Positions 1-12,323 of a DNA stretch of 12,736 nucleotides are shown here, piece after piece (the stretch's first letter is position 1; every line of letters starts with the position of its first letter). The stretch is from Chloracidobacterium sp. UBA7659 (GTDB lineage: Bacteria; Acidobacteriota; Blastocatellia; Pyrinomonadales; Pyrinomonadaceae): the NCBI GenBank assembly GCA_002483395.1, contig DLHV01000076.1, positions 25,057 to 37,792 on the forward strand, written 5' to 3'. Under the pieces are notes generated by a model that did no database searches, was not told the origin of the DNA, and saw nothing but the letters and a program-made list of their open reading frames with translations. The position numbers and the translations under genes were made by a program.

Positions 1-1
1 A

Positions 2-541
2 TTCAAGAATTCTGCCGTTTTCTCCTTTCGCCTGGTCGAAGACGTGACGGACGTTTTGGCCGAGCCGTTTGAAATTAGACGCGGCATCGTGATTCCTCCC
101 GGAACGTATCGTTTCAACCGCCCGCGAGTTGAGTTCTTCAGCGACCAGAGCAAAAAGATCGTTTTCACAGGACGTTACAAATGGGGCGGATTCTATTCGG
201 GCGAGCGGGACGAATATTCCGCCGGGGTAACGTATCGCCCGAATAAACATTTGCTGTTCGATTTCGCCGATACCTACAACGATGTGCGGCTTCGGCAAGG
301 CAAATTCACGACCAATCTTTTCGCCGGCCGGGTCAACTATAACTTTTCCCGGAAACTGCTGACCTCGGCTTTGCTTCAACTCAACTCAGCCGCGCGAGTT
401 TCGGCACTCAATGTTCGACTCCGTTACATCTATCGACCCAACAGCGACTTTTTCATCATCTACAATCAGACAACGGGCAGCGGACTGGAGCGGCCGTCAT
501 ACAGCCTTCAAATGAAAATGACTTATAATTTTACCTTCTGA
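2..541 (+). CDS. DUF5916 outer-membrane protein, C-terminal part (5' truncated by window)
   Basis: The reading frame is open from base 2 to a TGA at 539-541, so only the last ~179 residues of a larger protein are present; the GTG at 44 is internal and not a real start. The visible part matches my memory of the C-terminal end of DUF5916 proteins, which usually carry an N-terminal family 9 carbohydrate-binding-like domain: a stretch with PPGTYRFNRPRVEF, then RYKWGGFYSGERDEYSAGVTY, a run of alternating hydrophobic/polar strands, and IYRPNSDFFIIYN near the end. The protein ends MTYNFTF, with the terminal Phe and alternating pattern typical of outer-membrane beta-barrels. Function is not established for the family; an outer-membrane location is inferred. 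It is convergent with the activase gene ending at 989. Confidence 0.8.
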   Translation, partial: FKNSAVFSFRLVEDVTDVLAEPFEIRRGIVIPPGTYRFNRPRVEFFSDQSKKIVFTGRYKWGGFYSGERDEYSAGVTYRPNKHLLFDFADTYNDVRLRQGKFTTNLFAGRVNYNFSRKLLTSALLQLNSAARVSALNVRLRYIYRPNSDFFIIYNQTTGSGLERPSYSLQMKMTYNFTF

Positions 542-988
542 AAGCCGGCAAGACGGCGCGCCGCGGCAGGATTCCCGCGAAATTGTTTCGGTTCGGCTGG
601 ATCCTGAGGCAGGCTTGTTACTAATAAGCGGTTTGTATCCTATAAAAGCGGGGGCATACTTGTGCGACGCGGGGCAAGTTATCCTGGTCTCCGATCGAAA
701 GAGCTCGCTCGACCCCTAAACGCGTTAATCAGGCGGTGCAAGTCGCCGCAGGCTTAATTAAGAGCGAGTATCCGTTTGCCACAATGAAAGGCAAAAATCC
801 CGGGCCTACAATGATGGCAAGAATTATGACTCCTCCAAATCTTTAGTGTTTCTTGAGTGCAGAACCGTGGTTTGGCGTCTTGATATTTCCGGCGCAGGGG
901 AGTCCTTTCCTGATAACGCGCGTGCCGAATGCAACTGTTCGGTGTGTCGAATTTCCCCCAAACTTTCGATCTCCAGTGAAGGTCTTCC
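542..988. other. Intergenic region with no recognisable gene
   Basis: About 450 bp between two convergent genes. Short ORFs here are out-of-frame shadows without family resemblance. I looked for a tRNA and for a hairpin followed by a T-run and found neither convincingly. Weak structures present are a GGCGCGCC palindrome near 555 and a GGCG/CGCC stem around 733-750. The region probably holds the termination signals of both flanking genes, but I cannot point to them. Confidence 0.5.
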
Positions 989-1675
989 TCAGTATAGAAC
1001 TATTCGACCTGTTCGACGAGTCTCGCAAAGATCGATCACTCTTTGATTGCCGCTTCCCGTCCATGCCCCGGCACCCCCTGCTAAGGCAACGACGTAGGGA
1101 CCATCGATCAGCATATCGATATCAGCGAGAACTTCGCCTATCGCCGGCTGGGTTTCCGCTTGTCGCGCGAGCGTTTCCAACGTATAGCCTGTGTAACAAA
1201 GAATATGCTTGCAACCGGCTCGACGAAGCTCTTTGACAAGTGCTAGCAGACTTTCAGATTGAGCAAACGGTTCTCCACCGAGAATGCTAACCCCATCACG
1301 CTCGAAGGACGGGTCAAGCAACTTTTCAGCAAGCGTCGTAACTGAGACCAGTTGTCCACTATCCGGGCTGTGTAGATGCGGCACCCAACATCCTTTGCAA
1401 GACAACGGACAAAACTGAAAGAGCGCCGAGCTGCGGCGGCCCGGCCCTTCGACAAGCGAGTTGTGATAGTAGCCAGCGATCCTTACACGAGCCTCTTCTG
1501 TTTGGATATCCGGCGTGATCGGCGCCGGGATAACATCGAGCGGGCGAGCACATCCGCATTCCTTACCTTCGCCTGCAATGGCAGCAAATTTATCCAGCAC
1601 ATCGGCAGACAGGTGTGAATGCTCCAGGAGCATAACCCCGTTTGTCGTATCGATCAGCATTGTCAGTTCGCTCAT
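989..1675 (-). CDS. NrdG-like 4Fe-4S/radical SAM activating protein (reconstituted copy)
   Basis: A 228-residue protein of the anaerobic ribonucleotide reductase activase-like radical SAM family. Cys89, Cys93 and Cys96 form the CxxxCxxC motif that holds the 4Fe-4S cluster and binds S-adenosylmethionine. GGEP lies at 133-136, and TGSGNQRVIDL at 206-216 matches the family's C-terminal GSxNQR signature; the preceding IDMLIDGPY is also typical. Residues 1-65 are an N-terminal extension not found in classical NrdG. The ATG at 1675 follows a strong AGGAG. No reductase gene is nearby, so the target is unlikely to be NrdD; the context suggests it serves the Ycf46/Ycf35-like operon. Codons 1-95 appear to lie on the recombinase element and the rest on the host side, so this may be a chimeric gene rebuilt by integration. 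Family assignment is confident; function and origin are inferred. Confidence 0.82.
   Translation of the reverse strand: MSELTMLIDTTNGVMLLEHSHLSADVLDKFAAIAGEGKECGCARPLDVIPAPITPDIQTEEARVRIAGYYHNSLVEGPGRRSSALFQFCPLSCKGCWVPHLHSPDSGQLVSVTTLAEKLLDPSFERDGVSILGGEPFAQSESLLALVKELRRAGCKHILCYTGYTLETLARQAETQPAIGEVLADIDMLIDGPYVVALAGGAGAWTGSGNQRVIDLCETRRTGRIVLY
1386..1397. other. Candidate downstream attachment junction of the element
   Basis: On the - strand the intact activase reads GGA TGT (Gly95-Cys96) at 1393-1388, the same codon position where the interrupted copy breaks. GGAT at 1393-1390 is the shared core. The sequence upstream in the gene would be element-borne and the sequence downstream would be host. 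Confidence 0.4.
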
Positions 1676-1700
1676 CGTTTCTCCTCTCGAACTTCTTTAT

Positions 1701-3881
1701 TCATCTAACTTCCTGCCGCCCGTTTTCGTTCAGGTACGCGATGTTGCGGTCCATGCCGTCGATGGCTGTCGTCAACTCTCTATATACTTCTTCTTTTCGC
1801 GATGAGGGCAGCTTTTCAGTAGCCAGCCCTCGCAACTCGATGAGATTCGCTCGTTGCCGTTTGAGAAGCGGCAGACTCTGCTTGTCGGGAATGAGGTTTG
1901 GACAACTCTGACACGACAAGCGTGTTTCGCACGGATGATATGCAGTAAGCCCGCACCAGCCTAAGCCGAGATCAACAAACAGCGATTCCCGCCATTCAAC
2001 CTGCGCGGCGATGTGAGCTTCCGGGGAGAGCAGCACCCTGATTTGCGCCGTCGCACGGTGTTCCTCATCGATCTGAGCAAACGCCGTCTCAAACTCCTGT
2101 CGAAGCAAAGGCGGCATCACCGCGGCATATCGCATCGTCATTGTCAGGTTTTTGTGGCCGAGCATCCGGCTGATCGACTCGATCCGCATCCCGCGTCGGC
2201 GCCACAATGTGGCAAGCGTGTGGCGAAACCAATGGCTTGTATAGCGCTGATCTGTTTTTGCGAGTCCGCATAGTTTAGTGATGCATGCATTCAGCATATG
2301 AGTGGTGAATGGCAGCCCACGCCATGCAAACAGATAGTCGGTAGGCTTGTTGGTGCGCTCGTCGAGAAAAGAGGGTTGTTGGCCGCGCACTTTCATCCAG
2401 TTGTCGATCGCGGTGACCACTTGCGGACGGACCGGGATCATTCGATCATTGCGGAGTTTGCCAACCGGAACCCTGAGCCAATGTGTCTGCTCACCCGTTT
2501 GCGGGTCGATTGCCGCCAACAGACATCCCGTATCAAGGCGACAGAGTTCACCGGCCCGTAACCCTGACTCGAAGAGCACGGCCAGGACAGCCTGTACCCT
2601 CTCAAATGGCGGCGGAAAGCGTGCCGCATTCACTTGTTCAAAAGTCAGACTCTCCAGTACGGCACCGAGTCGGTGCCAATCCTGGTCCGGGATCGTGCGC
2701 GGTAGCTCTTGATCGACGCGCGGCAAGTCGCCGCGAATCCAGAGCTTTCGGCGCGGACGTTCCGGGTAGTCGAGGGCATCGATCTGTTCGCAAAAGTTGC
2801 GGACGCAAGACAGCGTACGAACTTGATGCCACCTCGACACTGGCTGCCCGAAGTTGACAGTATGAAATTCGTGGCCGGCGTTGGTGTAGTCTCCGCATTG
2901 CATATCTTTCACCGCACGCTTAAAGGCTTCTATATGCTTACGTCGGAGATCCGCGATCGACTTCACCGACGGGTCAACCTCGCCGAGCCAGTCGCCAAAG
3001 CGGCGCAAGGAAACGCGATATGTCTGAATAGTCCCTGCCGCACGCACCGTTTGAAAATCGGCAAGAAATCGCGTGAATGTCTCCCGTATCTGCGGAGCGG
3101 TGCGTCCCCATGTAAAGTGGGGTGATGGATCAGCCAAGAATCGGGTCGCTGGGGCCTCCTTTAGATATCCCATTGCCCGTAAGACCTTCTCAATACGGAT
3201 GACACTCGCATTTGCGACTCGTTTTGACCTCTTCGTGAAATTACGCCAATTCTCTATATCGACTCTTGTGAGTTCGCCGAGATCGGTCTTCTTAGCGAGT
3301 ACGAGCATTGCTAAAAGAGCGCTCGTAACGCACTTATGGAGCGTCACCTTATCTTTGTAGCCGACATTGAGGGCGGCCGTCATAAAACGTTCGCTGATTT
3401 TGCGTGCACGATCTTTTCCGAGCCATTTCTCAGCGAGAACGCGGTGAAAGGTCTTATGGATCTCTTCGCTGTACGGTATGATTCCAAGAAAGAAAAGCGT
3501 TGAAGCGACAAGGTGCCACTTATCTTCTTGATTCCAGTGCCAAACCTTCGAGCGATCCTTTTCTCGCTCCAGCATCTCGCTTTTCCAGGCTCGAAGGCGT
3601 TCCCACTCGAATCCCCAGTAGGTACAGTCGAACTCTAACATCAGCTTGCCGCAAAAGTGCAGCGCTTCGCTGAAGGCGAAATGATGATAACGCGCCTGGC
3701 GATTGCGTACGCAATAGTGTACGAAGGCTTTTTTGAATGGATCGAACAACTCCGCAATCTGCTGTTTTTCCTTAGCGTCCCAACGTTTTGTGGCAAGGAG
3801 TTGTCGCTCCTTCTCGGTAAGAGTCAGGCGGTGTGCGGTGAAGTTGAACTCTGGCTTATTCGGACTGATCGGGGTACTCAT
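1701..3881 (-). CDS. Large tyrosine recombinase (TnpB-like), 726 aa
   Basis: A site-specific tyrosine recombinase/integrase. The catalytic set is visible: Arg442 (ESGLRAGEL), Lys475 (VGKLRNDR), His550 and Arg553 (SHWFRHT), His576 (MLGHKN) and the nucleophile Tyr585 (MRYA). Residues ~265-380 look like a core-binding SAM-like domain. Residues 1-260 are a long N-terminal extension I do not recognise. After the catalytic domain, Cys643, Cys651, Cys657 and Cys660 form a possible zinc-binding cluster followed by a charged helical tail; large integrases of Tn554 TnpB type have similar tails. The ATG at 3881 overlaps the stop of the 343-aa recombinase by 4 bases and is preceded by a G-rich ribosome binding site, so the pair is translationally coupled. 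It probably acts with the smaller recombinase in strand exchange. Confidence 0.85.
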   Translation of the reverse strand: MSTPISPNKPEFNFTAHRLTLTEKERQLLATKRWDAKEKQQIAELFDPFKKAFVHYCVRNRQARYHHFAFSEALHFCGKLMLEFDCTYWGFEWERLRAWKSEMLEREKDRSKVWHWNQEDKWHLVASTLFFLGIIPYSEEIHKTFHRVLAEKWLGKDRARKISERFMTAALNVGYKDKVTLHKCVTSALLAMLVLAKKTDLGELTRVDIENWRNFTKRSKRVANASVIRIEKVLRAMGYLKEAPATRFLADPSPHFTWGRTAPQIRETFTRFLADFQTVRAAGTIQTYRVSLRRFGDWLGEVDPSVKSIADLRRKHIEAFKRAVKDMQCGDYTNAGHEFHTVNFGQPVSRWHQVRTLSCVRNFCEQIDALDYPERPRRKLWIRGDLPRVDQELPRTIPDQDWHRLGAVLESLTFEQVNAARFPPPFERVQAVLAVLFESGLRAGELCRLDTGCLLAAIDPQTGEQTHWLRVPVGKLRNDRMIPVRPQVVTAIDNWMKVRGQQPSFLDERTNKPTDYLFAWRGLPFTTHMLNACITKLCGLAKTDQRYTSHWFRHTLATLWRRRGMRIESISRMLGHKNLTMTMRYAAVMPPLLRQEFETAFAQIDEEHRATAQIRVLLSPEAHIAAQVEWRESLFVDLGLGWCGLTAYHPCETRLSCQSCPNLIPDKQSLPLLKRQRANLIELRGLATEKLPSSRKEEVYRELTTAIDGMDRNIAYLNENGRQEVR

Positions 3882-4909
3882 TTCGTTCCCCCCTTACTAT
3901 CCTTGTCGGCATCTTCCGTGGACTTAGCTTTCGAAGTGTCCGCCATTGCCTGGCGGTACTCCCGCTGAAGGCGAGTATCCCGGACCTCGTTATAAATAAG
4001 CGTCGTCTCTATATGTCGATGACCAAGCTGTCTCTGTAGCGCGTCCATCGGCATCCCGGCTTCTGCCAGGTTCGTCGCGCAGGTATGACGAAAAGCGTGA
4101 GCATGAACGCGTGGCACACCGGCTCGCTTGCGGGCTTCTTCGCAAACATAGACCCAGGCCCGGTAACGAAATGGCTGGCCAAAGTTCCGCCTCCCGAGAC
4201 AGACAAAAACGTAGTCGTGGGTCAGAGAGGTCGGGCGTTCTATTCTGATGTAGTTCGAAAGTGCAGTGAGAGCTTCGTCACTTAGAGGAACGATACGGGA
4301 GTTGCGACTCTTGGAAGCATGAACCGTAACGCGCCGGCCCGCCCAGTGAATGTCCGGCATCTGTAGGGAGAGAGCTTCGCCGATCCGGACACCTCCGTCT
4401 TTCAGCAGCCATACGATCGCACGGTCGCGATGCTTTGTTGCGGTCAACTGCGAGACGAAGCGATCGATCTCGTCCGGCGAGAGTGTCTGCGGTCGAGAGC
4501 GGTCGTACCGAAGAAGCGCGGGTTGGCCCGAGACGATCCCAGCGGCAGTGCGTAACGTTCCTCCAATCGGAACAGGGTTGCGTTGAACACCCGTTTGTTC
4601 GGGCTCCAACATAAGAAACTCATACCACTGCCGGAGTGCGGAAAGACGCCGGACGAGTGTGCGTGCCCCAACTGTCTCTCCGCGACATGTCGGACGCTCA
4701 CGCTCCGTGCGAACACACTGGATAATATCGGTAGGCCGAGCAGTAAGAGCATTGATCCCGGCGTCGTTGCAGAACGCGAGCCATCGCACGAGATCCTGCC
4801 GGTATGCCCTCACAGTGTTGTAGGGACGTACGGTTGATAGATCCTCGACGAAACGCTCAAACCAAAATGAAGTATCAAAAGTGTGCTGTTTGTTGTTGGT
4901 GTCTTTCAT
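3878..4909 (-). CDS. Tyrosine recombinase (TnpA/XerC-like), 343 aa
   Basis: A phage-integrase-family recombinase with an N-terminal core-binding domain (about residues 12-115) and a catalytic domain (about 140-320). Catalytic residues seen are Arg175 (DGGVRIGEAL), Lys200 (ASKSRNSR), His271 and Arg274 (HAFRHT), His297 (LGHRH) and Tyr306 (LIYNEV). The C-terminal ~25 residues are charged and low in complexity. Length and order (a ~340-aa recombinase followed by a much larger one with an overlapping start) fit Tn554-type TnpA/TnpB. No clear Shine-Dalgarno precedes ATG 4909. The truncated activase frame runs over this start and stops at 4875, so expression may depend on reinitiation after that frame. 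It is the first gene of the proposed mobile element. Confidence 0.87.
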   Translation of the reverse strand: MKDTNNKQHTFDTSFWFERFVEDLSTVRPYNTVRAYRQDLVRWLAFCNDAGINALTARPTDIIQCVRTERERPTCRGETVGARTLVRRLSALRQWYEFLMLEPEQTGVQRNPVPIGGTLRTAAGIVSGQPALLRYDRSRPQTLSPDEIDRFVSQLTATKHRDRAIVWLLKDGGVRIGEALSLQMPDIHWAGRRVTVHASKSRNSRIVPLSDEALTALSNYIRIERPTSLTHDYVFVCLGRRNFGQPFRYRAWVYVCEEARKRAGVPRVHAHAFRHTCATNLAEAGMPMDALQRQLGHRHIETTLIYNEVRDTRLQREYRQAMADTSKAKSTEDADKDSKGGTK

Positions 4910-5264
4910 GGGCTAAATCATACTTCGCCCTTTCAAGACTGTAGATAAATCCCTGACAGCGAATCGAACACCCACTGACTTGAACCACACTCCGTCGTCC
5001 GGGACCGTCAACCGTCGAATGATGGTAAAAACGGTAAAGCCAAATAGAGAATTCGTCTGATTCAGTTTGCTTGGGTGACTTACATTGACGAGGGAGAACG
5101 GGTAAGTTTCTTCGCGAGTTTTCAGCCGGCTTAGCGCAGTTTATGTTCACTCGCGTACCAAGATCACCCGCAAGATCGTCAACGGCTTGTTTCGAGGCCT
5201 GCGAGATCTCAACGGTAACCCGCCCGACATCAGGTTCCAGTACGAAGACCATTTCGTTATTCAT
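4875..5264 (-). pseudogene. Truncated NrdG-like radical SAM activase, original 5' half interrupted by the element
   Basis: The host-side first half of the activase gene. ATG 5264 overlaps the end of the DUF2997 gene by 8 bases, as expected for an operon member. Residues 1-105 belong to the family: FYHHSTVDGPGRRS at 79-92 aligns with YYHNSLVEGPGRRS of the intact copy, followed by Cys99 and Cys103. The third cluster cysteine is missing: the frame reads CQGF at 103-106 and then 23 residues of unrelated sequence to a stop at 4875-4877. It therefore lacks the GGEP motif, the SAM-binding core and the C-terminal signature and cannot be an active radical SAM enzyme. In the motif region it matches the other copy at about 13 of 31 positions, so the two N-terminal halves are diverged homologues and not a recent duplication. 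Confidence 0.75.
4945..4956. other. Candidate upstream attachment junction of the element
   Basis: On the - strand, family homology ends at the Gly codon GGA (4952-4950) and is followed by TTT instead of a Cys codon. The bases GGAT here (ATCC on the + strand, 4949-4952) are shared with the other junction at 1390-1393. The shared core is very short, so the exact crossover cannot be fixed from one sequence. Confidence 0.4.
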
Positions 5265-5451
5265 TTAATCCCACTCGCCGTTTTGCGTGAGGCTTTACGT
5301 GAAACTCCTCCGTTTTCCGGTCGGTTGTCGGAGCTCCGAGTATCTGTTTCAGTTGGCGGGCTGTTTGCTCACAAGCCGGCCCCTGGATACCGTTGATCGT
5401 GGTATCGCACTTCCCGGTTTCCGTATCGATCGTGAATTCGATTTCAGGCAT
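5257..5451 (-). CDS. DUF2997 family protein, 64 aa
   Basis: A 64-residue acidic protein starting MPEIEFTIDTETG, with NGIQGPACEQTARQLKQILG in the middle. This is the layout of DUF2997, a small family of unknown function that often sits beside Ycf35/DUF1257 genes in cyanobacteria and other bacteria. The frame is open further upstream to 5748, but ATG 5451 is preceded by a good GAGGAAC site and begins exactly at the family start. It follows the DUF1257 stop by 17 bases and overlaps the activase start by 8 bases, so it is probably co-expressed with both. The fold and role are unknown; a small adaptor or carrier is one possibility, not shown by the sequence. Confidence 0.78.
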   Translation of the reverse strand: MPEIEFTIDTETGKCDTTINGIQGPACEQTARQLKQILGAPTTDRKTEEFHVKPHAKRRVGLNE

Positions 5452-5468: not shown

Positions 5469-5867
5469 CTAGAATTTGACTCTTATCTTGATCGTCTTTC
5501 CGATCCGCTCTTTGACAAGCGTCCCGCCGAGTTTCCTGGCCATCTTTCGGGCGCCAGCTTCGTGATAGTGATTTTGCAGCCTCACAACGAAATCCTTGCC
5601 GAGACGATAGTCGAGGTCCATATCGTCGATCACAGCGACGTAGCCTGACGCTGTTTTTTGGAAACCGATATCGGCCAGAAAATGATGGCTTTTTACGTCC
5701 TTTCGCCGGACAATAATGTCCGCCGTGCGGGCGTTGCGTTTGTCCCAACCATCAAGTGGCAGATCCTTGCCTTGAATCACGATATTGAATCCGAAGTCAG
5801 CTAGTGCTTCGAGCAGCAGATCACCATTTGCAAACGACTGAGATTCGAATGTCATGTATTTACTCAT
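5469..5867 (-). CDS. DUF1257 (Ycf35-like) protein, 132 aa
   Basis: A 132-residue soluble protein with the Ycf35/DUF1257 pattern: ALADFGFN near residue 22, TADIIVRR near 49, FLADIGFQKTASGYVAVIDDMD at about 63-84, and YRLGKDFVVRLQNHYHEAGARKMARKLGG at about 87-115, ending in short beta strands. Ycf35 is encoded in some plastid genomes and widely in cyanobacteria; its biochemical role is not known to me. ATG 5867 follows a TTGAGG site and starts 12 bases after the AAA gene stop. Pairing with a Ycf46-like AAA protein, DUF2997 and an Fe-S activase repeats an association I recall from other genomes, suggesting one complex or pathway. Confidence 0.82.
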   Translation of the reverse strand: MSKYMTFESQSFANGDLLLEALADFGFNIVIQGKDLPLDGWDKRNARTADIIVRRKDVKSHHFLADIGFQKTASGYVAVIDDMDLDYRLGKDFVVRLQNHYHEAGARKMARKLGGTLVKERIGKTIKIRVKF

Positions 5868-5879
5868 AAATACCTCAAG

Positions 5880-7499
5880 TTAAAATTCGTAAACGCGATC
5901 GGGGCTCTGTCCCACGAGTTGAGAGCCTTCGATCTTTGCGGCCGCACCCTTTATATTGTTCCGCGCCCATTTGCGAATCTCTTCGATCTTCTCGCTCATC
6001 ATCTGGGCTGTCGGCGTCATGTTGTCTACAGCCTTGAGAATGTCTCGCGTTTCGGCGGAACGGTCGCCGTCGATAAAAGCTTCCAGCACTCCGTCCTTTA
6101 CCGCTCCTTCGATCTCGGCTCCGGAAAAGTCCTTACTTCGTTCGACGAGCTTTTCCAAGTCGAACTGGTTGGCATCGAGTTGTCTCTTTTTGAGATGGAC
6201 TCGGAATATCTCTCGACGATCCTCGCTTTCCGGAAGGTCAACAAAATGGATGTAAGAAAAACGTCCAATCCTGAACTGCTCGGACTCAAGCTCGCGAACA
6301 TCATTCGCGGTTGCGAAAACCAGAACATCGCGGTTGTCCTGCATCCAGTTCAGCAGGTACGAAATCGTTCGGGCCGTCTCACCACCATCGGTCTTGTTCG
6401 AGGACTTCATTCCAGAGACAGCCTTCTCGAACTCGCTGATTCCGAGAATTCCCTTGATCGTTCCTGCAATCGACAGTGCTCGCTTTATCGACATCGCAGA
6501 CGAGCCGATCACTCCGCCGCCTTCGCCCATTATCGAACCAAAATCAAGATCGAGAAGGGCACGATTGGTTATGCTAGACGCAACGCGCTTGCACAGATCC
6601 TTTCCGCATCCTGGAAGGCCGACTAATAGTATTCCTTTGCACGGCTCGACAAGTCGTGCCTTCGCTCGTGGGCTGAACGTGTACGCGGCCCTTTCCAAGA
6701 TTGCCCGAAGCGATTTGTAGCCACCCAGATTGCTAGCCGCCTCGGGATGGACATAAGTCAGCGAACCGCTACCGCGAATCACGTTCTTCTTCTCTTCGAG
6801 AATTACCTTTATAGAATCCTGATTCAGCCCATTGCAGCTAATAACAGCTTTTGCGATGACATTGCTTATCTCGCCAGCGGTCAGACCTAGCAGTGATTGG
6901 AGCAAAGCGGTCTGTGTTTCTGTTGTGAGATCGATATCGAGTCCATTAGACCTTAAGTTCTCAAGTTGCAGATCTATCGATTCTTCGATCTCACCTTCTT
7001 TCGGAAGATCCAATTCGATCTGCGTAACCTCTTTTTCAAGGGTTTTCAATTCAGGAAAGTTCGGACCGACGAACAGAACGGTCGCTTTGGTCGATTTTAG
7101 CTTCCAGGCTATTTCGCGAAGACGGCGAACGAGAAGCGGATCTTCCTGACCGTAAGGCGAAATGTAAGGAGCGTAGTCACACAAGAGAAAGATGCCGGTC
7201 TTCTGCTCGCTAATGTAACCAAGCACACTTTCGGGGTCATCGGTATCCCCAATCGAAACCGGAGTCTGCTGAAGGCCGTCTTTTGGATCGACGATTTTTT
7301 GCAGGCCTGACGGTCGGCTCCAAAAATAAAGCGGCTTCTCCTTATGCCGCTCATGGAAGACCAGATCGAGAAGAGCCTCTCGAACCCTGTCCTCCTCGTA
7401 GGTGTTGATAGCGATAAGCGGATAGCGTGCCCGGATCCTTATATCCAGCTCGTGCAGGAATTTCCGGATGCTGTCGGCATCGGTTTCTTTTTCAGTCAT
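5880..7499 (-). CDS. Ycf46-like AAA protein with degenerate Walker motifs
   Basis: A ~539-residue AAA-family protein. The N-terminal ~200 residues contain RARYPLIAINTYEEDRVREAL, the hallmark opening of Ycf46-type proteins. The AAA core starts near residue 255. Walker A reads GLPGCGKD (294-301), with Asp in place of the usual Thr/Ser after Lys. The Walker B region reads ILGISEFEK, with Ser355 where the magnesium-binding Asp is expected but Glu356 kept. Sensor-1-like FATAND (395-400) and the RIGRF arginine-finger-like segment (410-414) are present, followed by a helical lid. The frame could begin at GTG 7517, overlapping the upstream stop by 4 bases, but ATG 7499 has a GAGAG site a few bases upstream and is preferred. 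Possible roles are a remodelling ATPase or a nucleotide-sensing scaffold for the neighbouring DUF1257/DUF2997 proteins; both are inference. Confidence 0.82.
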   Translation of the reverse strand: MTEKETDADSIRKFLHELDIRIRARYPLIAINTYEEDRVREALLDLVFHERHKEKPLYFWSRPSGLQKIVDPKDGLQQTPVSIGDTDDPESVLGYISEQKTGIFLLCDYAPYISPYGQEDPLLVRRLREIAWKLKSTKATVLFVGPNFPELKTLEKEVTQIELDLPKEGEIEESIDLQLENLRSNGLDIDLTTETQTALLQSLLGLTAGEISNVIAKAVISCNGLNQDSIKVILEEKKNVIRGSGSLTYVHPEAASNLGGYKSLRAILERAAYTFSPRAKARLVEPCKGILLVGLPGCGKDLCKRVASSITNRALLDLDFGSIMGEGGGVIGSSAMSIKRALSIAGTIKGILGISEFEKAVSGMKSSNKTDGGETARTISYLLNWMQDNRDVLVFATANDVRELESEQFRIGRFSYIHFVDLPESEDRREIFRVHLKKRQLDANQFDLEKLVERSKDFSGAEIEGAVKDGVLEAFIDGDRSAETRDILKAVDNMTPTAQMMSEKIEEIRKWARNNIKGAAAKIEGSQLVGQSPDRVYEF

Positions 7500-7513
7500 G
7501 TTGCTCTCAAAGA

Positions 7514-7912
7514 TCACGAAACGGACTGCGAAGCACGTCGTCCGTTATGTCCGTTCTGCGGTGCAGGGCTGCTCATACGCTCGACCTTCTGCATCTCTTC
7601 ACGGGATGCTATCCCGTTCTCAATTTTAAAACCGAGATTCGCGAGAGCCCGTCCAACCGCGCTCGTTTCACCGTTCTCTATGAAGGAAGTCGTATTCACA
7701 TACCCTTGGCCCCGGATCTCGAACGCGTGTCCTGTTGCGCTCGGTTCGGCATCGTCGGGGCAACGAAAGACGTTCGCCTTTACACACACGAAACCGGTTT
7801 CTTCGTTGAGTCTCACCAGGTCGGTAACGATGCGTCCTTCCGGGTATTTTTCGTAGAAAGCCGCGATGCGGGAGTGGACGGGTATGTATTTGCTTAGATC
7901 GAACTGTGCCAT
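7514..7912 (-). CDS. Possible single-strand-annealing-like protein (ERF/Rad52-Sak type), 132 aa
   Basis: The first gene of the operon. FDLSKYIPVHSRIAAFYEKYPEGRIVTDLV at the start and FIENGETSAVGRALANLGFKI at about 77-97 form a pattern I associate with phage and prophage proteins related to ERF/Sak single-strand annealing proteins, where the ETSAVGRALA segment is conserved. The C-terminal ~25 residues are Pro/Ser/Asn/Arg-rich and probably disordered. At 132 residues it is shorter than most annealing proteins, so it could be a trimmed domain with another job. ATG 7912 has a distant GAGG about 10 bases upstream, with a perfect 10-base palindrome in between. Its stop is 14 bases before the AAA start. 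I am sure it is a gene; the annealing role is tentative. Confidence 0.6.
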   Translation of the reverse strand: MAQFDLSKYIPVHSRIAAFYEKYPEGRIVTDLVRLNEETGFVCVKANVFRCPDDAEPSATGHAFEIRGQGYVNTTSFIENGETSAVGRALANLGFKIENGIASREEMQKVERMSSPAPQNGHNGRRASQSVS

Positions 7913-8298: not shown

Positions 8299-9153
8299 AT
8301 GAAAAAGGATTTATCTGAGTATCCGCGCCGGATTATTTGCCTTACGGAAGAGACAACGGAAGTCCTTTATCTTCTCGGAGAGCAGGACCGCATTGTCGGC
8401 ATCTCGGGATATACGGTACGGCCACCTGAGGCACGGCAAAAGCCGAAGGTTTCTGCATTCATCAATGCCAAATTTGACAAGATAATGGCGTTGGAACCCG
8501 ACCTTGTATTTGCGTTTTCCGATTTGCAGGCAGACATTGCGGCTGAACTCATACGTCGCGGCGTAAACGTATTCACTTTTAATCAGCGCAGCGTTGAAGA
8601 AATACTTCATATGATCCTTACGGTCGGGCGCATCGTTGGCGGCGAAGATCAATCATTGTTCTTAGTCGGGCAACTTTGCGAAGAGCTAGATGCCGTCAGA
8701 GCCTCAGCAGCCCGGTTTCCGTTTCGGCCACGAGTTTATTTCGAAGAGTGGTTCGATCCACTCATTTCCGGCATTCGTTGGGTCGAGGAATTGATCGAAA
8801 TAGCCGGCGGCGAAACGATCTTTCCCGAACTCAGAAATTGCCAGGCTGCAAAAGACCGCATTCTTTCAAGCGAGGCTATCATAGATGCAAATCCGGATGT
8901 AATTATAGGTTCATGGTGCGGGCGGCAAGTAAAAAAAGAAGTGATTCGTTCTCGTGCGGGATGGGCCAACATAGCGGCTGTAGCCAGTGGACATATTTAC
9001 GAAGTGAAATCGACGTATATTCTACAACCCGGCCCTGCCGCCTTGACCGAAGGAATTCGCCAAATACATAAAATACTGGCACATGTCGCAGCAGCTGATG
9101 TTGATATAACACTCGCTCCGGTGGAGAAAACGGACGCGGCCTTATCAGCGTGA
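8299..9153 (+). CDS. BtuF-like cobalamin-binding protein without signal peptide
   Basis: A 284-residue class III periplasmic-binding-protein fold of the BtuF/FecB type. RIICLTEETTEVLYLLGEQDRIVGISGY at 11-38 is the usual opening of corrinoid-binding proteins, followed by LEPDLVFAFSDLQADIAAELIRRGVNVFTF (65-94), the linker helix region around 100-135, RVYFEEWFDPLISGIRWVEELIEIAGG (145-171) and the C-terminal lobe ending near 262. There is no signal peptide or lipobox, and a TAA eight bases upstream of ATG 8299 rules out an in-frame N-terminal extension. The protein is therefore predicted to be cytoplasmic, which makes a role as an ordinary ABC transporter partner doubtful; corrinoid binding inside the cell is an alternative. 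No strong ribosome binding site is seen. It overlaps the convergent CWC gene by 9 bases. The cobalamin riboswitch downstream supports a corrinoid role. Confidence 0.82.
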   Translation: MKKDLSEYPRRIICLTEETTEVLYLLGEQDRIVGISGYTVRPPEARQKPKVSAFINAKFDKIMALEPDLVFAFSDLQADIAAELIRRGVNVFTFNQRSVEEILHMILTVGRIVGGEDQSLFLVGQLCEELDAVRASAARFPFRPRVYFEEWFDPLISGIRWVEELIEIAGGETIFPELRNCQAAKDRILSSEAIIDANPDVIIGSWCGRQVKKEVIRSRAGWANIAAVASGHIYEVKSTYILQPGPAALTEGIRQIHKILAHVAAADVDITLAPVEKTDAALSA

Positions 9154-9534
9154 TATTTGCTTCACATAGCCGTATGGACAATGTTTACAACCGTTACGGC
9201 AACAATATCCACGCTTCAGATGATACCAGGCTGTAAAAACAAAATTGCCATCGTCATTAATGTAGTAGTCGATTCCCTCGACCGTCTTGCTGCTGGTATT
9301 GAAATCCTTCGCCATATTGTTTGAGGCATTTTCGGGAGTTACAGTCTGGACGTATTCCGCTATCTTTTCCTGCACGACGATCTTCAAACACGCCGGACAG
9401 CGGCAATCCTGACTGAAATCAAGCGGCATTATCGGCGGGTAATCGTTGCACCAGCAATTCTGATCGGAGCTTTCGGAACCACAATCAAAGCTCGTCCCAC
9501 AAACTGAACAAGTTTTTGCTTTCATACCGGACAT
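9145..9534 (-). CDS. Cysteine-rich CWC/DUF5522 domain protein, 129 aa
   Basis: Two small Cys-rich modules in one chain. Residues 9-50 fit the cysteine-rich CWC family: Cys9, Cys12, Cys18, the CWC at 27-29, then Cys44, Cys46 and Cys49, likely binding zinc or another metal. Residues 89-122 fit DUF5522: YYINDDGNFVFTAWYHLKRG followed by Cys111, Cys112, Cys116 and Cys119 in the CCRNGCKHCPYG segment. Neither module has a function known to me. ATG 9534 or ATG 9525 could be the start; neither has a strong Shine-Dalgarno. It is convergent with the BtuF-like gene (stops overlap by 9 bases), so it is probably unrelated to that transcript. Confidence 0.75.
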   Translation of the reverse strand: MSGMKAKTCSVCGTSFDCGSESSDQNCWCNDYPPIMPLDFSQDCRCPACLKIVVQEKIAEYVQTVTPENASNNMAKDFNTSSKTVEGIDYYINDDGNFVFTAWYHLKRGYCCRNGCKHCPYGYVKQISR

Positions 9535-9601
9535 AATTCGGAATCGCTAATTATCCCAAACATAAACAAATTCTATCGCAATTTTATTTATCTAACACAT
9601 C

Positions 9602-9633
9602 TTGTTTGCTCTCGCGTTCTCATCTGCTATAGT
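9602..9633 (+). promoter_or_regulatory. Candidate promoter for the cobalamin riboswitch operon
   Basis: TATAGT at 9628-9633 with an upstream TG (extended -10) lies just before the riboswitch. A TTGTTT at 9602-9607 is a possible -35, but the 20-base spacing is long. The position is right for transcription to begin close to the aptamer's 5' end. Confidence 0.35.
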
Positions 9634-9825
9634 TTAGGCGAAGGTTCTTTTCAGTTATCAAACCGAAAAGGTTTTGCCGTATGGCAAATCAAAAGGGAAT
9701 CGTGTGTAAATCACGAACTGTCGCGCAACTGTAAGTAACGAAATAATTTTCTCCAATATATCCACTGCTGATTAAGTGGGAAGGATGGTAGAAAAGGTTA
9801 CAAGTCAGGAGACCTGCCTTTACTA
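9632..9825 (+). ncRNA. Cobalamin riboswitch
   Basis: Conserved blocks of the cobalamin aptamer appear in order: GGTTC at 9643, GGGAA near 9696, GTG then AAATCAC near 9703-9714, CTGTCGCGCAACTGTAA at about 9718-9734, CCACTG near 9761, GGGAAGG at about 9779, and the terminal B12 box AAGTCAGGAGACCTGCC ending near 9818. The leader continues about 200 bases to the DUF6580 start codon. By family precedent, cobalamin binding should repress the downstream genes. Exact edges (P1 helix) are estimated. Confidence 0.95.
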
Positions 9826-9907
9826 AATTGACAATGCTTTCGCGGATTGAAGCAAGCGGTCAGAACTAAGGCGCGTTTCTTGAACAAGCTCCCTGCCGAT
9901 CAAGAAG

Positions 9908-10020
9908 CCTTTCTTCCTTCTTTCCTTTCTCCAAATCCAGAACACATCGTACAGTATCAGCGAAAAGCTGCGCATAAAACTTGTGCGTAGTCTGATCAAT
10001 CTTTTGTTCTAGAGAGGACA
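9908..10020 (+). promoter_or_regulatory. Candidate riboswitch expression platform (ribosome-binding-site sequestration)
   Basis: A pyrimidine tract at 9908-9932 contains TCCTTTCT (9923-9930), which can pair with the Shine-Dalgarno AGAGAGGA (10011-10018) of the DUF6580 gene with one G-U pair. A second hairpin can form between CTGCGCA (9968-9974) and TGTGCGTAG (9982-9990). No hairpin with an immediate U-run was found, so translational control looks more likely than intrinsic termination. Confidence 0.35.
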
Positions 10021-10022
10021 TT

Positions 10023-10610
10023 ATGCAGGCAAAAAAGATCGACGTTAGATTTGGCGTTATCGCTTTGATGATCCTTGCCGCGGCGTTTAGCCGTCTGATC
10101 CCGCATCCGGCGAACTTTGCGGCGATAGGCGCGATGGCCTTGTTCGGAGCCGCGCACTTCAAAAGCAAATGGGCGGCTTTCATCGTCCCTTTGCTGGCGC
10201 TTTGGTTAAGCGATCTGGTTGTCACGAACATTCTTTACGCGTCGTATTACAAAACCTTTACGCTTTTCTACAGCGGATTTTACTGGGTTTATGGAGCGAT
10301 AGCTCTAACAACGGTGCTTGGTTTTTTGCTCTTGAAGAAGGTTAATTTCGGCAGGGTCGCAGGTTCGGGCCTTGCGGCATCACTGTTGTTTTTCATCGTT
10401 ACGAACTTCGGTTCGTGGCCGGGCAATCCGCTCTACAGCCAGGATTTTAACGGGTTGATAGCTTGCTACGTCGCGGGGATTCCATTTTTTGGCGGGACGC
10501 TTGCCGGTAATTTGTTTTACTCGGCGGTTTTATTCGGCGGCTTTGCATTGGCGCAAAGACAGTTTCCGATTTTGCGTTCGGTCGAGGTTCGAAGCGAGGT
10601 ACAGGCTTGA
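10023..10610 (+). CDS. DUF6580 family membrane protein, putative corrinoid-related transporter component
   Basis: A 195-residue integral membrane protein with about five to six hydrophobic segments: roughly 9-27, 31-45, 51-68, 86-104, 112-130 and 145-177. Short signatures such as AFSRLIPHPANFAAIGAMALFG (21-42), LWLSDLVV (60-67) and NFGSWPGNPLY (128-138) match DUF6580 as I remember it. ATG 10023 has a strong AGAGAGGA site. It is the first gene after the cobalamin riboswitch, which suggests cobalamin or cobalt uptake. Its size and all-helical layout resemble the substrate-binding S components of ECF transporters, but no ECF ATPase is in the window. Its stop overlaps the TTG start of the radical SAM gene, so the two are translationally coupled. 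Confidence 0.78.
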   Translation: MQAKKIDVRFGVIALMILAAAFSRLIPHPANFAAIGAMALFGAAHFKSKWAAFIVPLLALWLSDLVVTNILYASYYKTFTLFYSGFYWVYGAIALTTVLGFLLLKKVNFGRVAGSGLAASLLFFIVTNFGSWPGNPLYSQDFNGLIACYVAGIPFFGGTLAGNLFYSAVLFGGFALAQRQFPILRSVEVRSEVQA

Positions 10611-11569
10611 ATAGAAGCGACGTTTACAGAGCCTGGGGAAAAATCTTACGCGGCGGTCACCCTTCGATGTCCATCGAGATCACACGCGAATGTCCACTAA
10701 GATGCCCCGGCTGTTATGCATACGAACCGGAACATCTGCAGGGGAACGGGGTTCTCAGAGAGTTAAGCGACCATAAGGGCGATGACCTGATCAATAATGT
10801 CCTAAAGCTCGTAAAAAAACATAAACCGATTCACCTCTCGATCGTCGGCGGCGAACCGCTTGTCAGATTCCGTGAACTGGACATTCTGCTTCCGCAACTG
10901 AGCCAACTCGGGATTGCGGTTCAGCTTGTGACAAGCGCCGTACGCGAAATTCCGAAAGCATGGAACAAGATAAAGGCTCTGCATATCGTCGTTTCTATAG
11001 ACGGTTTACAGCCGGAACATGACGCACGGCGAAAACCCGCGACATACGAGCGAGTCTTAAGAAACATCCAGGATCAGAAAATAACCGTTCATTGCACCGT
11101 CACTTCGCAAACGGCACAGCGCGAAGGCTATTACGAAGAGTTTCTTAAGTTTTGGTCTGCAAGGCCGGAGGTCAAGCAAATATGGATGAGTTTGTTCACT
11201 CCGCAAATGGGTGCCGACGACGAGGAAATACTTTCTCCGGTAGTTCGTTCGAATGTAATAAGCGAGTTCGTCGTTTTACGTGAAAGATTTCCTAAGCTCA
11301 TCTTTCCAGATCGAGTTGCCAAGGGCTACCGGGAACCGCCCAAGTCGCCGAACGAATGTATATTTGCACGAACCACTTTGAACCTGACGGCCGATCTGAC
11401 GAGCCGTGTTACGCCGTGTCAATTCGGCGGAACACCGGATTGCTCGCAGTGCGGATGTATAGCGTCGGCCGGACTAGCGGCGGTCGGGAACTACAAGTTG
11501 TTCAACATCTTGCCACTTCGTACCATCTACAACGCCTCGGACCGTATCGGACAAACATTTCGACGATAG
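10607..11569 (+). CDS. Radical SAM protein with C-terminal Cys cluster, cobalamin-regulated
   Basis: A 320-residue radical SAM enzyme. Cys29, Cys33 and Cys36 (CPLRCPGC) bind the 4Fe-4S cluster, GGEP is at 81-84 and IDGLQPEHD at 131-139 is a typical barrel segment. Cys251, Cys271, Cys279, Cys282 and Cys284 form a SPASM-like C-terminal cluster that could hold a second Fe-S centre. The start is TTG 10607, overlapping the DUF6580 stop, with GAGG 8 bases upstream; the first ATG is too far into the domain. Being under a cobalamin riboswitch suggests a job in corrinoid or lower-ligand metabolism, or a B12-independent replacement reaction. I do not recognise the exact subfamily. Confidence 0.8.
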   Translation: MNRSDVYRAWGKILRGGHPSMSIEITRECPLRCPGCYAYEPEHLQGNGVLRELSDHKGDDLINNVLKLVKKHKPIHLSIVGGEPLVRFRELDILLPQLSQLGIAVQLVTSAVREIPKAWNKIKALHIVVSIDGLQPEHDARRKPATYERVLRNIQDQKITVHCTVTSQTAQREGYYEEFLKFWSARPEVKQIWMSLFTPQMGADDEEILSPVVRSNVISEFVVLRERFPKLIFPDRVAKGYREPPKSPNECIFARTTLNLTADLTSRVTPCQFGGTPDCSQCGCIASAGLAAVGNYKLFNILPLRTIYNASDRIGQTFRR

Positions 11570-11621
11570 GTGTATCGTCCCTAAGAAGACCTGCTTCAGC
11601 CGACGCAATTATCGACAATTA

Positions 11622-12323
11622 ATGCGAACGAAACCAAAAGCAGTAATGAATTGGAGCGGCGGCAAGGATTCTGCTCTCGCTCTAAATAGATTGCTTTACG
11701 AAGACGAGTTTGACGTAAAATTCTTGCTTACGAGTGTTAACAGTCACTGGCAGCGAATCTCGATGCATGGGGTTCGACGGGAATTACTTCATAACCAAGC
11801 CGAGGCTATAGGAATAAAGCTTGTCGAAATTCTCATGCCGGAATTGCCATCGATGGAGACTTACGAACAGGAGTTGAATAAGACACTTAATTACCTGATC
11901 GAACAAGGCGTTACGCAGTCGATCTTCGGCGACATTTTTCTCGAGGATTTGCGAAAGTATCGCGAAACTCAGTTAAAAAAGAAAAACTTGTCCGCAGTAT
12001 TTCCTTTATGGAAGATTCCCACAAGAAAACTGATTGACGAGTTTCTTGCTGGCGATTTCAAGGCGGTGGTAGTTTGCGTCGATGGAAAGAAACTCGATAA
12101 AAGCTTTTGCGGCCGGATACTCGATGAATCGTTTGTAGACGACCTGCCGCCGCACGTTGACATTTGCGGAGAAAACGGTGAGTTTCATACTTTCGTTTAC
12201 GACGCTCCTTTTTTCAGCAAACCCGTTGCCTTCGAGATCGGAGAAACAGTCTTTAAGCAATATCGAACGTGTGAAGTAGGTATTAGTTCCGAGTTCTATT
12301 TTTGTGATTTGGTCCCGAAATAA
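11622..12323 (+). CDS. Dph6-like PP-loop ATP pyrophosphatase (diphthine-ammonia ligase family)
   Basis: A 233-residue adenine nucleotide alpha-hydrolase-like enzyme. SGGKDS at 12-17 is the PP-loop that binds ATP; FGDIFLEDLRKYRE (102-115), FPLW (127-130) and CGENGEFHTFVYDAP (182-196) are hallmark segments of the Dph6/diphthine-ammonia ligase family. Family members activate a carboxylate with ATP and transfer ammonia to make an amide. Diphthamide itself is made only on archaeal and eukaryotic EF2, so a bacterial copy must act on something else. Its place in a cobalamin-regulated gene set makes a corrinoid side-chain carboxylate a reasonable guess. The gene starts 52 bases after the radical SAM stop, with no strong ribosome binding site; ATG 11646 is in frame but would cut into the first beta strand. 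Confidence 0.85.
   Translation: MRTKPKAVMNWSGGKDSALALNRLLYEDEFDVKFLLTSVNSHWQRISMHGVRRELLHNQAEAIGIKLVEILMPELPSMETYEQELNKTLNYLIEQGVTQSIFGDIFLEDLRKYRETQLKKKNLSAVFPLWKIPTRKLIDEFLAGDFKAVVVCVDGKKLDKSFCGRILDESFVDDLPPHVDICGENGEFHTFVYDAPFFSKPVAFEIGETVFKQYRTCEVGISSEFYFCDLVPK

Follow-up and report, generated by a model that had tools for sequence, protein, structure and literature searches.

We analyzed a 12,736-nucleotide stretch of the genome of Chloracidobacterium sp. UBA7659 (assembly GCA_002483395.1, contig DLHV01000076.1, positions 25,057 to 37,792), in which an operon gene for a radical-SAM activase breaks off inside its CxxxCxxC cysteine motif. We refer to the whole stretch as the window (C48:25057-37792 of genome G000, whose assembly is 82% complete in 268 contigs); coordinates without a prefix are those of the window. 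The break is one end of a 23,721-bp element (C48:6284-30004) inserted directly before the third cysteine codon of the motif. We consider it, with a probability of about 75%, to be a Tn554-like site-specific transposon that destroys its target gene and brings, as its third core gene, a full-length substitute for it. The core genes stand in the order recA-recB-act2. The first two names are convenience labels for two tyrosine recombinases, unrelated to the RecA protein, and act2 is the element-borne activase at 1675-989; the activase type of the host operon is called act1.

The host activase is split by the element

The host activase gene starts at 5264 and its 5' part, codons 1-105, occupies 4950..5264 on the minus strand, as judged from the sequence and from comparison with element-free loci. 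The family sequence is kept through CSIRCQG, the last glycine codon of which ends at 4950, and is followed by FIYSLERAK..., so that the third cysteine is gone. An original prediction, made from the sequence of the window, had described this break, two recombinase genes that follow it and an intact activase beyond them, all of which we confirmed: the recombinase genes lie at 4909-3878 and 3881-1701, and the intact activase has the motif CPLSCKGC. It had also stated that no 3' half of the broken gene is left. This is correct for the interval 989-5264, but the host 3' half persists beyond the window, on the same strand, at C48:6278-5910. A search of the genome with act2 returned three places, namely act2 itself, the 5' half and C48:5928-6314. 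Read in frame, the displaced 3' half starts CFVPQTHERENGTLVSIASIVSEIV, which is the continuation after CSIRCQG at the element-free locus L030, and this match indicates that the gene is interrupted by the element. The entry of a tyrosine-recombinase element at the conserved cysteine motif of the activase gene, as first proposed, is therefore borne out. The extent then given to the element, 3.6 kb, is not: given the location of the 3' half, the element measures 23.7 kb and the host halves lie ~24 kb apart on one contig.

For comparison we used 42 loci. An act1-type activase runs uninterrupted through the codon in 32 of them, one (L047) is the insertion in genome G023 described below, two carry other activase types (L036, L046) and seven do not cover the codon (L009, L034, L035, L037, L041, L042 and L044). 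Identity to the 32 element-free activases is 49-88% for the host N-terminal half (88% for L030 and L011) and, with their C-terminal halves, 52-78% for the displaced 3' half. Some of the 32 loci are near-identical or come from one genome, and L016 ends later at a contig end (68 C-terminal columns compared).

The portion of the element within the window is 1..4948, and the remainder continues outside to C48:6284. It is bounded by perfect 11-bp terminal inverted repeats, the left one (TTATCTACAGT, 4938..4948, minus strand) being the exact inverse of the right end (ACTGTAGATAA, C48:6294-6284). The left junction reads GGA followed by TTTATCTACAGTCTTGAA, and the right junction CACACTGTAGATAACTGCT followed by TGTTTCG. 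When compared with the element-free L030 sequence TGTCAGGGATGTTTCG, the left side keeps the host bases AGGGAT (left attachment-site core, attL, 4949..4954, minus strand). The right side has CTGCTT (attR core, C48:6283-6278, outside the window), which is foreign relative to L030, and then the host bases GTTTCG. This comparison implies a core of 6 bp.

act2 is a whole activase gene of another lineage

act2 (989..1675, minus strand) encodes a complete radical-SAM activase of 228 aa with the motif CPLSCKGC. It starts 25 bp after the recB stop, and its start is preceded by GAGGAG, a likely ribosome-binding site. In the original prediction the part at 1390-989 was the host 3' half, separated from its N-terminal partner at 5264-4950 and rebuilt in frame with a 5' half brought by the element. 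We compared the N- and C-terminal halves separately and rejected this chimera. Both halves of act2 are 83% identical to the element copy in G023, and they are 54% (N) and 62% (C) identical to the activase of L036. Against the 32 element-free act1 genes, identity is 26-34% in the N half and 38-46% in the C half. Because the halves are equally close to the G023 copy and both distant from act1, act2 is, on sequence comparison, one whole gene of a lineage other than that of the host activase, and not a fusion. The C half at 1390-989 groups with its own N half rather than with host operon activases, an outcome that the original prediction had itself named as refuting it; the true C-terminal partner of 5264-4950 is the sequence at C48:6278-5910.

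From its sequence and predicted structure, act2 looks functional. An alignment with 47 of the 120 relatives listed shows no variation in the three cysteines of the motif or in GGEP, and the ratio of nonsynonymous to synonymous divergence (dN/dS) between this copy and that of G023 is 0.15, a sign of purifying selection. The predicted model has a mean local confidence (pLDDT) of 78 and a predicted template-modelling score (pTM) of 0.74. In a fold search its best match was pyruvate formate-lyase activase (expectation value E 1.4e-5, template-modelling score TM 0.46), a moderate similarity with TM about 0.45-0.48. The best NCBIfam match was NrdG, under its cut-off, and the PHROGs names were ribonucleotide-reductase-subunit and QueE-like. 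A sequence search of the PDB gave no match, and among viral contigs there were 4 pattern hits, none of them a relative of act2.

At E<=1e-60, act2 was found in 6 of 119 family genomes: the present one, G023, G009, and three (G047, G124, G129) in which the gene is of operon type. The operon-type gene adjoins DUF2997 in L036/G124, G129 and G047, and the first two also have the AAA and DUF1257 genes; L036 and G124 are one contig (equal length of 20720, identical protein), which leaves three operon-type genes in the sequences covered. The act2 lineage thus also exists as an ordinary operon gene, which is a likely origin of the element's copy.

The two recombinase genes

The recA product is a tyrosine recombinase of ordinary size (343 aa; 3878..4909, minus strand), and its gene starts within the reading frame that runs on from the truncated activase. 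Its presumptive catalytic residues R175, H271, R274 and Y306 are conserved in 120, 119, 118 and 115 of 120 aligned relatives. The recB product is a long tyrosine recombinase (726 aa; 1701..3881, minus strand; 4-bp overlap with recA), in which R442, H550, R553 and Y585 are conserved in 90, 89, 90 and 86 of 93 aligned relatives. PHROGs gives integrase names for both. At E<=1e-30, recB was found in 3 of 162 class genomes (this one, G023 and, at 27% identity, G053), and at E<=1e-80 recA was found in one of 396 phylum genomes, the present one. No match to recB was found in viral contigs.

The same insertion recurs in relatives

In G023 the break lies before the identical codon and both junctions are present, in 40 kb of sequence without N (locus L054, the start of which equals L047; record JAHBSI010000005.1). 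Its ends match those described above (left TTTATCTACAGTCTTGAA, right CACACTGTAGATAACTGC), and this shared break with shared ends argues that the split is not due to chance. The left end of this copy is at 1282 of L054, the right repeat at 14713, and the host 3' half begins at 14729. Its act2 (13939-14625) is an intact frame of 228 codons and the final gene ahead of the right end. The recA match ends after 107 codons and the recB match covers only the part from codon 474, with 2.9 kb of other DNA between them. A second recB remnant adjoins act2, from which we conclude that this copy is rearranged. Over its whole length (L054:1282-14728) it holds recA and recB in broken form, an RHS-repeat gene of 2044 codons, two recB remnants and the retained act2, and it is probably immobile.

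For G009 only the right junction is available. It shows the same right end, a strong hairpin, another host 3' half and an act2 that is frameshifted at the contig end. Among 162 class genomes, three (G000, G023 and G009) have the exact 18-bp right end and two (G000 and G023) the exact 18-bp left end. End motifs were scored by exact match only, because with <=2 mismatches the reversed control also matched (7 places vs 13 for the right end; for the left end the control exceeded the true pattern).

The flanks of the two insertions are more diverged at silent sites than the element genes. Between this genome and G023, synonymous divergence (dS) is 2.0 for DUF1257 and 1.05 for the displaced C half, and the N half is saturated (proportion of differing silent sites, pS, 0.84); the corresponding dS values are 0.58 for act2, 0.54 for the recB part and 0.72 for the recA part. 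From this difference, the two insertions are probably separate events. The left flanks also have different closest relatives (the N half here is 88% identical to L030/L011, that of G023 88% to L017), and the nearest tRNA genes in the stretches compared differ (Asn, Thr and Glu, the last ~10 kb off).

act2 relatives seem to be associated with recombinases in metagenomes

We compared metagenome protein clusters of the act2 family (120 listed of 896, 117 with a length), of recA (120 of 153) and of recB (93 listed from a capped set of candidates). Among the clusters listed, 15 of 120 act2-family clusters match the longest-contig size of a recA or recB cluster, and 5 match both. When lengths were shifted by 1-300 bases (600 shifts), the mean was 1.9 matches and the maximum 9, compared with the 15 observed; for lengths >6000 the mean was 0.10, compared with 8. 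The excess of size matching is real, and about 2 of the 15 may be due to chance. One of the contigs, of 4019 bp, would have room for recA, recB and an activase with ~100 bp left. From the equal sizes, act2 relatives seem to be co-located with the recombinases on these contigs.

Divergence of the three genes is correlated. In Mantel tests on 11 loci, including the present one, r was 0.80 for recA and the activase, a value reached in 0 of 5000 permutations, and 0.64 for recB and the activase, reached in 1 of 5000. A tree of 129 rows requires 2 label changes to separate the 17 element-linked activases from the 4 rows of operon-type act2 and the 7 of act1, and none of 500 shuffles gave so low a count. 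The remaining 101 rows are unlabelled, three clusters were excluded by length, and two of the four operon-type rows (L036 and G124) are one contig. In these sequence comparisons, act2 seems to travel and co-diverge with the recombinase pair. No relative of act2, recA or recB at >50% identity was found in the available flanks of the 32 element-free loci, of which the shortest post-codon flank is 204 bp.

Points against the transposon reading and alternative explanations

Several observations weigh against a transposon that replaces the gene it destroys. The stand-in would have to act for a host enzyme to which it is 28% (N half) and 43% (C half) identical. G023 has three other intact act1-type activases, so rescue may be unneeded there. 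In G009, which is 99% complete, act2 is frameshifted, there is no other activase match and there is no DUF1257; the activase may be dispensable in that genome, or the locus may be unassembled. The right core is CTGCTT both here and in G023, and CTGCCT in G009, which is steadier than free carry-over of donor bases suggests. The displaced C halves of this genome and G023 are joint mutual best matches (78%, compared with 64% for the N halves), so a shared right flank is possible. On the metagenome contigs, we infer the proximity of act2 to the recombinases from size. Finally, short N runs interrupt the element in our contig (2-bp runs and one of 69 bp), and its span rests on these joins.

The best-surviving alternative is that act2 hitchhikes or assists recombination, for instance in the position of TnpC, without taking over from the broken activase. 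act2 does occupy the third-gene place of Tn554, where no other core gene was seen, and the frameshift at the G009 contig end and the spare activases of G023 would fit such a role. On the other side, act2 belongs to the protein family of the target, keeps the cluster motif and the predicted radical-SAM fold, evolves at the low dN/dS given above, and is intact in G023 although recA and recB are broken there. We regard this alternative as unlikely. It is very unlikely that act2 is a second, tandem host gene that predates the insertion. An act2-type gene is the operon activase beside DUF2997 in L036/G124, G129 and G047, but none at >50% identity occurs in the 32 element-free act1 flanks, and act2 recurs within the elements of G023 and G009 and is linked by equal contig sizes to recombinases in metagenomes. 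A scaffolding artefact of the metagenome-assembled genome, for which the N runs and the incomplete, fragmented assembly might speak, is hardly credible given that the two junctions in G023 fall at the same codon in N-free sequence and that the inverted repeats are perfect. We practically discount a 3.6-kb element that completes the host 3' half with an in-frame 5' half of its own: an activase frame does cross the same codon beside the recombinases, but the host 3' half is found elsewhere, and both act2 halves are equally close to the G023 copy and both differ from host activases.

Proposed mechanism

In the transposon reading, recA and recB would act on the inverted ends across the 6-bp core and so place the element at the activase motif. 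By analogy with the strand-biased circularizing integrative elements (SEs) and Tn552-II discussed below, the element would be excised or copied as a circle and its 6-bp spacer deposited at the right end on re-insertion. The host operon transcript would continue beyond the broken activase and cover recA, recB and act2; given the one-strand layout and the recA start inside the truncated frame, transcription probably reaches act2. The act2 product would then replace the lost activase in the operon and keep the cost of insertion low, while cargo for chromate efflux, transport and regulation would ride between act2 and the right end. The original suggestion that the cost of insertion is masked thus survives in part: the element offers the means to do so, but the half-gene mechanism proposed for it was wrong.

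It is possible, though doubtful, that the element represents a 'home-and-rescue' family that destroys one radical-SAM activase and has, as its conserved third core gene, a rescue enzyme of another lineage. In such a family the rescue gene would have diverged beyond easy recombination with the flanks. The arm next to the target core differs as well: the two act2 copies agree with the nearer of the two occupied targets at 8 of 14 bases, and act1 genes match at 9-14 bases in 31 of 32 cases and at 8 in the other. This arm mismatch is a weak hint that act2 may itself be a poor target. If this picture is true, each insertion would switch the activase lineage of the operon and could bind the operon to keeping the element.

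Relation to known elements

Site-specific elements usually spare the host by inserting into tRNA genes or the ends of genes, or by restoring part of the gene that they enter. The present element cuts an enzyme's active-site motif and seems to have carried a whole substitute over long evolutionary time. In this it is a counterpart in nature of gene drives that carry a rescue.

The nearest precedent that we found is tgl of Tn552-II in Staphylococcus aureus. According to the accessible part of that report (PMC12486829), tgl is a homologue of the interrupted gene that may rescue the target, and the authors liken Tn552-II to Tn554 and mention a similar report by others. Both elements carry a target-gene homologue. 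Tn552-II leaves a donor-base footprint at the right end, which the host-like left core and foreign right core found here may parallel, although the right core is nearly constant in three copies. As far as the same text goes (PMC12486829), Tn552-II differs in its target (a yolD-like gene or plasmid coding sequence; here a radical-SAM activase), its 7-bp core, its tnpABC genes and its being one element; here the substitute is of a distant lineage, no third recombination gene was seen and the association is apparent in many diverged lineages. A rescue role was thus suggested earlier for one Tn552-II element, and the act2 family provides many lineages for comparison.

Tn554-like tandems of actinobacteria consist of an ordinary and an abnormally long recombinase gene, adjacent and co-oriented, some without TnpC, as described in the portion of the paper available (PMC3414803), which mentions no target-gene substitute. 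The adjacent 343-aa and 726-aa recombinases, with conserved RHRY residues and a 4-bp gene overlap, resemble this arrangement, and two Rhodococcus plasmid recombinase pairs share the Tn554-like layout. The sequence comparison of recB was with plasmid-borne long recombinases, to which it is ~22-29% identical. As for the target specificity of Tn554, the same codon is hit here and in G023, and at the right junction in G009 (three copies only). Among open reading frames of at least 80 codons, no third recombination gene (tnpC) was found beside recA-recB, and act2 holds that place.

SEs have an ordinary and a large RHRY recombinase, inverted repeats at their ends, the genes tfp and srap, and a 6-bp footprint by the right end with host bases by the left; they were detected only in Gammaproteobacteria (PMC10214605, accessible sections). 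The recombinase pair and inverted ends are common to both, the foreign right core and host-like left core found here may correspond to the SE footprint, and a target substitute goes unmentioned in those sections (PMC10214605). The overlap of recA with recB and the gap of only 25 bp before act2 leave no room for tfp here, and srap was not seen beside recA-recB, although no library search was made for it. The partly available account of GInts (PMC5385486) describes three integrases and a small protein, expects change or silencing of the target in some cases, and does not mention a carried substitute. The recombinase operon and variable cargo resemble those of GInts, for which a circle with attachment-site sequence variants is also a feature (PMC5385486, same part). 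GInts and RIT elements differ in having three tyrosine recombinase genes, compared with two adjacent ones here. In a literature search limited to open-licence papers, none of the titles and abstracts listed dealt with an activase as the target, and one paper named a target-gene-like passenger (PMC12486829); a paper on gene-drive rescue (PMC12508426) was also listed.

Cargo, host operon and neighbouring genes

Between act2 and the right end, the element carries genes for ChrB, a chromate transporter, an MFS transporter, a two-component pair, a DUF1259 protein, an ABC binding protein and permease, and a DUF5916/CBM9 protein. The last of these probably runs from C48:23386 into the window (2..541, plus strand), with its frame broken by short N runs. 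Promoter and terminator scans gave only chance-level results.

Upstream of the split activase, the host operon continues on the minus strand with genes for a 64-aa DUF2997 protein (5257..5451; PF11211, 24.9 bits vs a cut-off of 24.1), overlapping the activase start, a DUF1257 protein (5469..5867; library match) and an AAA+ ATPase (5880..7517; library match and relatives), the close relatives of which are Acidobacteriota and Pyrinomonadaceae metagenome-assembled genomes. Further upstream are PRTRC-like genes (ThiF E 2e-37, B 2.5e-18, A 2.8e-8; all under curated cut-offs). An integrase gene and tRNA-Asn lie at one contig end and a TraG-type P-loop protein further in, and together these genes make it probable that the target lies within a genomic island. 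More than one operon copy is present in several relatives, G023 having four copies of DUF1257; the AAA-DUF1257-DUF2997-activase operon is multicopy in some genomes (L007-L048; for example G023 contigs C2, C5 and C6), sometimes at contig ends.

We also considered the activase codon as a general recombination seam and rejected it. L014 and L015 are identical over 3661 bp up to the third-cysteine codon and then ~80% identical, but other pairs change at +20 to +38 bp or elsewhere. A search for activase pieces in 20 genomes gave one match each in the L014 and L015 genomes, the known gene, and shorter C-terminal activase fragments (G523, G521 twice, C48:60169 here) begin no earlier than residue 131, away from the codon. 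The L014/L015 pattern may reflect ordinary recombination. Beyond this break the two loci have, by eye, metal-efflux-looking genes that are ~71% alike, and L008 and L011/L030 drop 20-38 bp later.

At 8299-12323, the window contains binding-protein, DUF5522, membrane, radical-SAM and Dph6-like (PF01902) genes between two island genes. These flanking genes (C48:37786 and C48:32570) are ~220 bp apart in L007, which points to an additional insertion in the island. An activase C-terminus fragment (residues 172-213) is present at C48:60136-60420 of this genome, ~1.5 kb past the gene with the TraG P-loop match and possibly close to where the island ends on that side.

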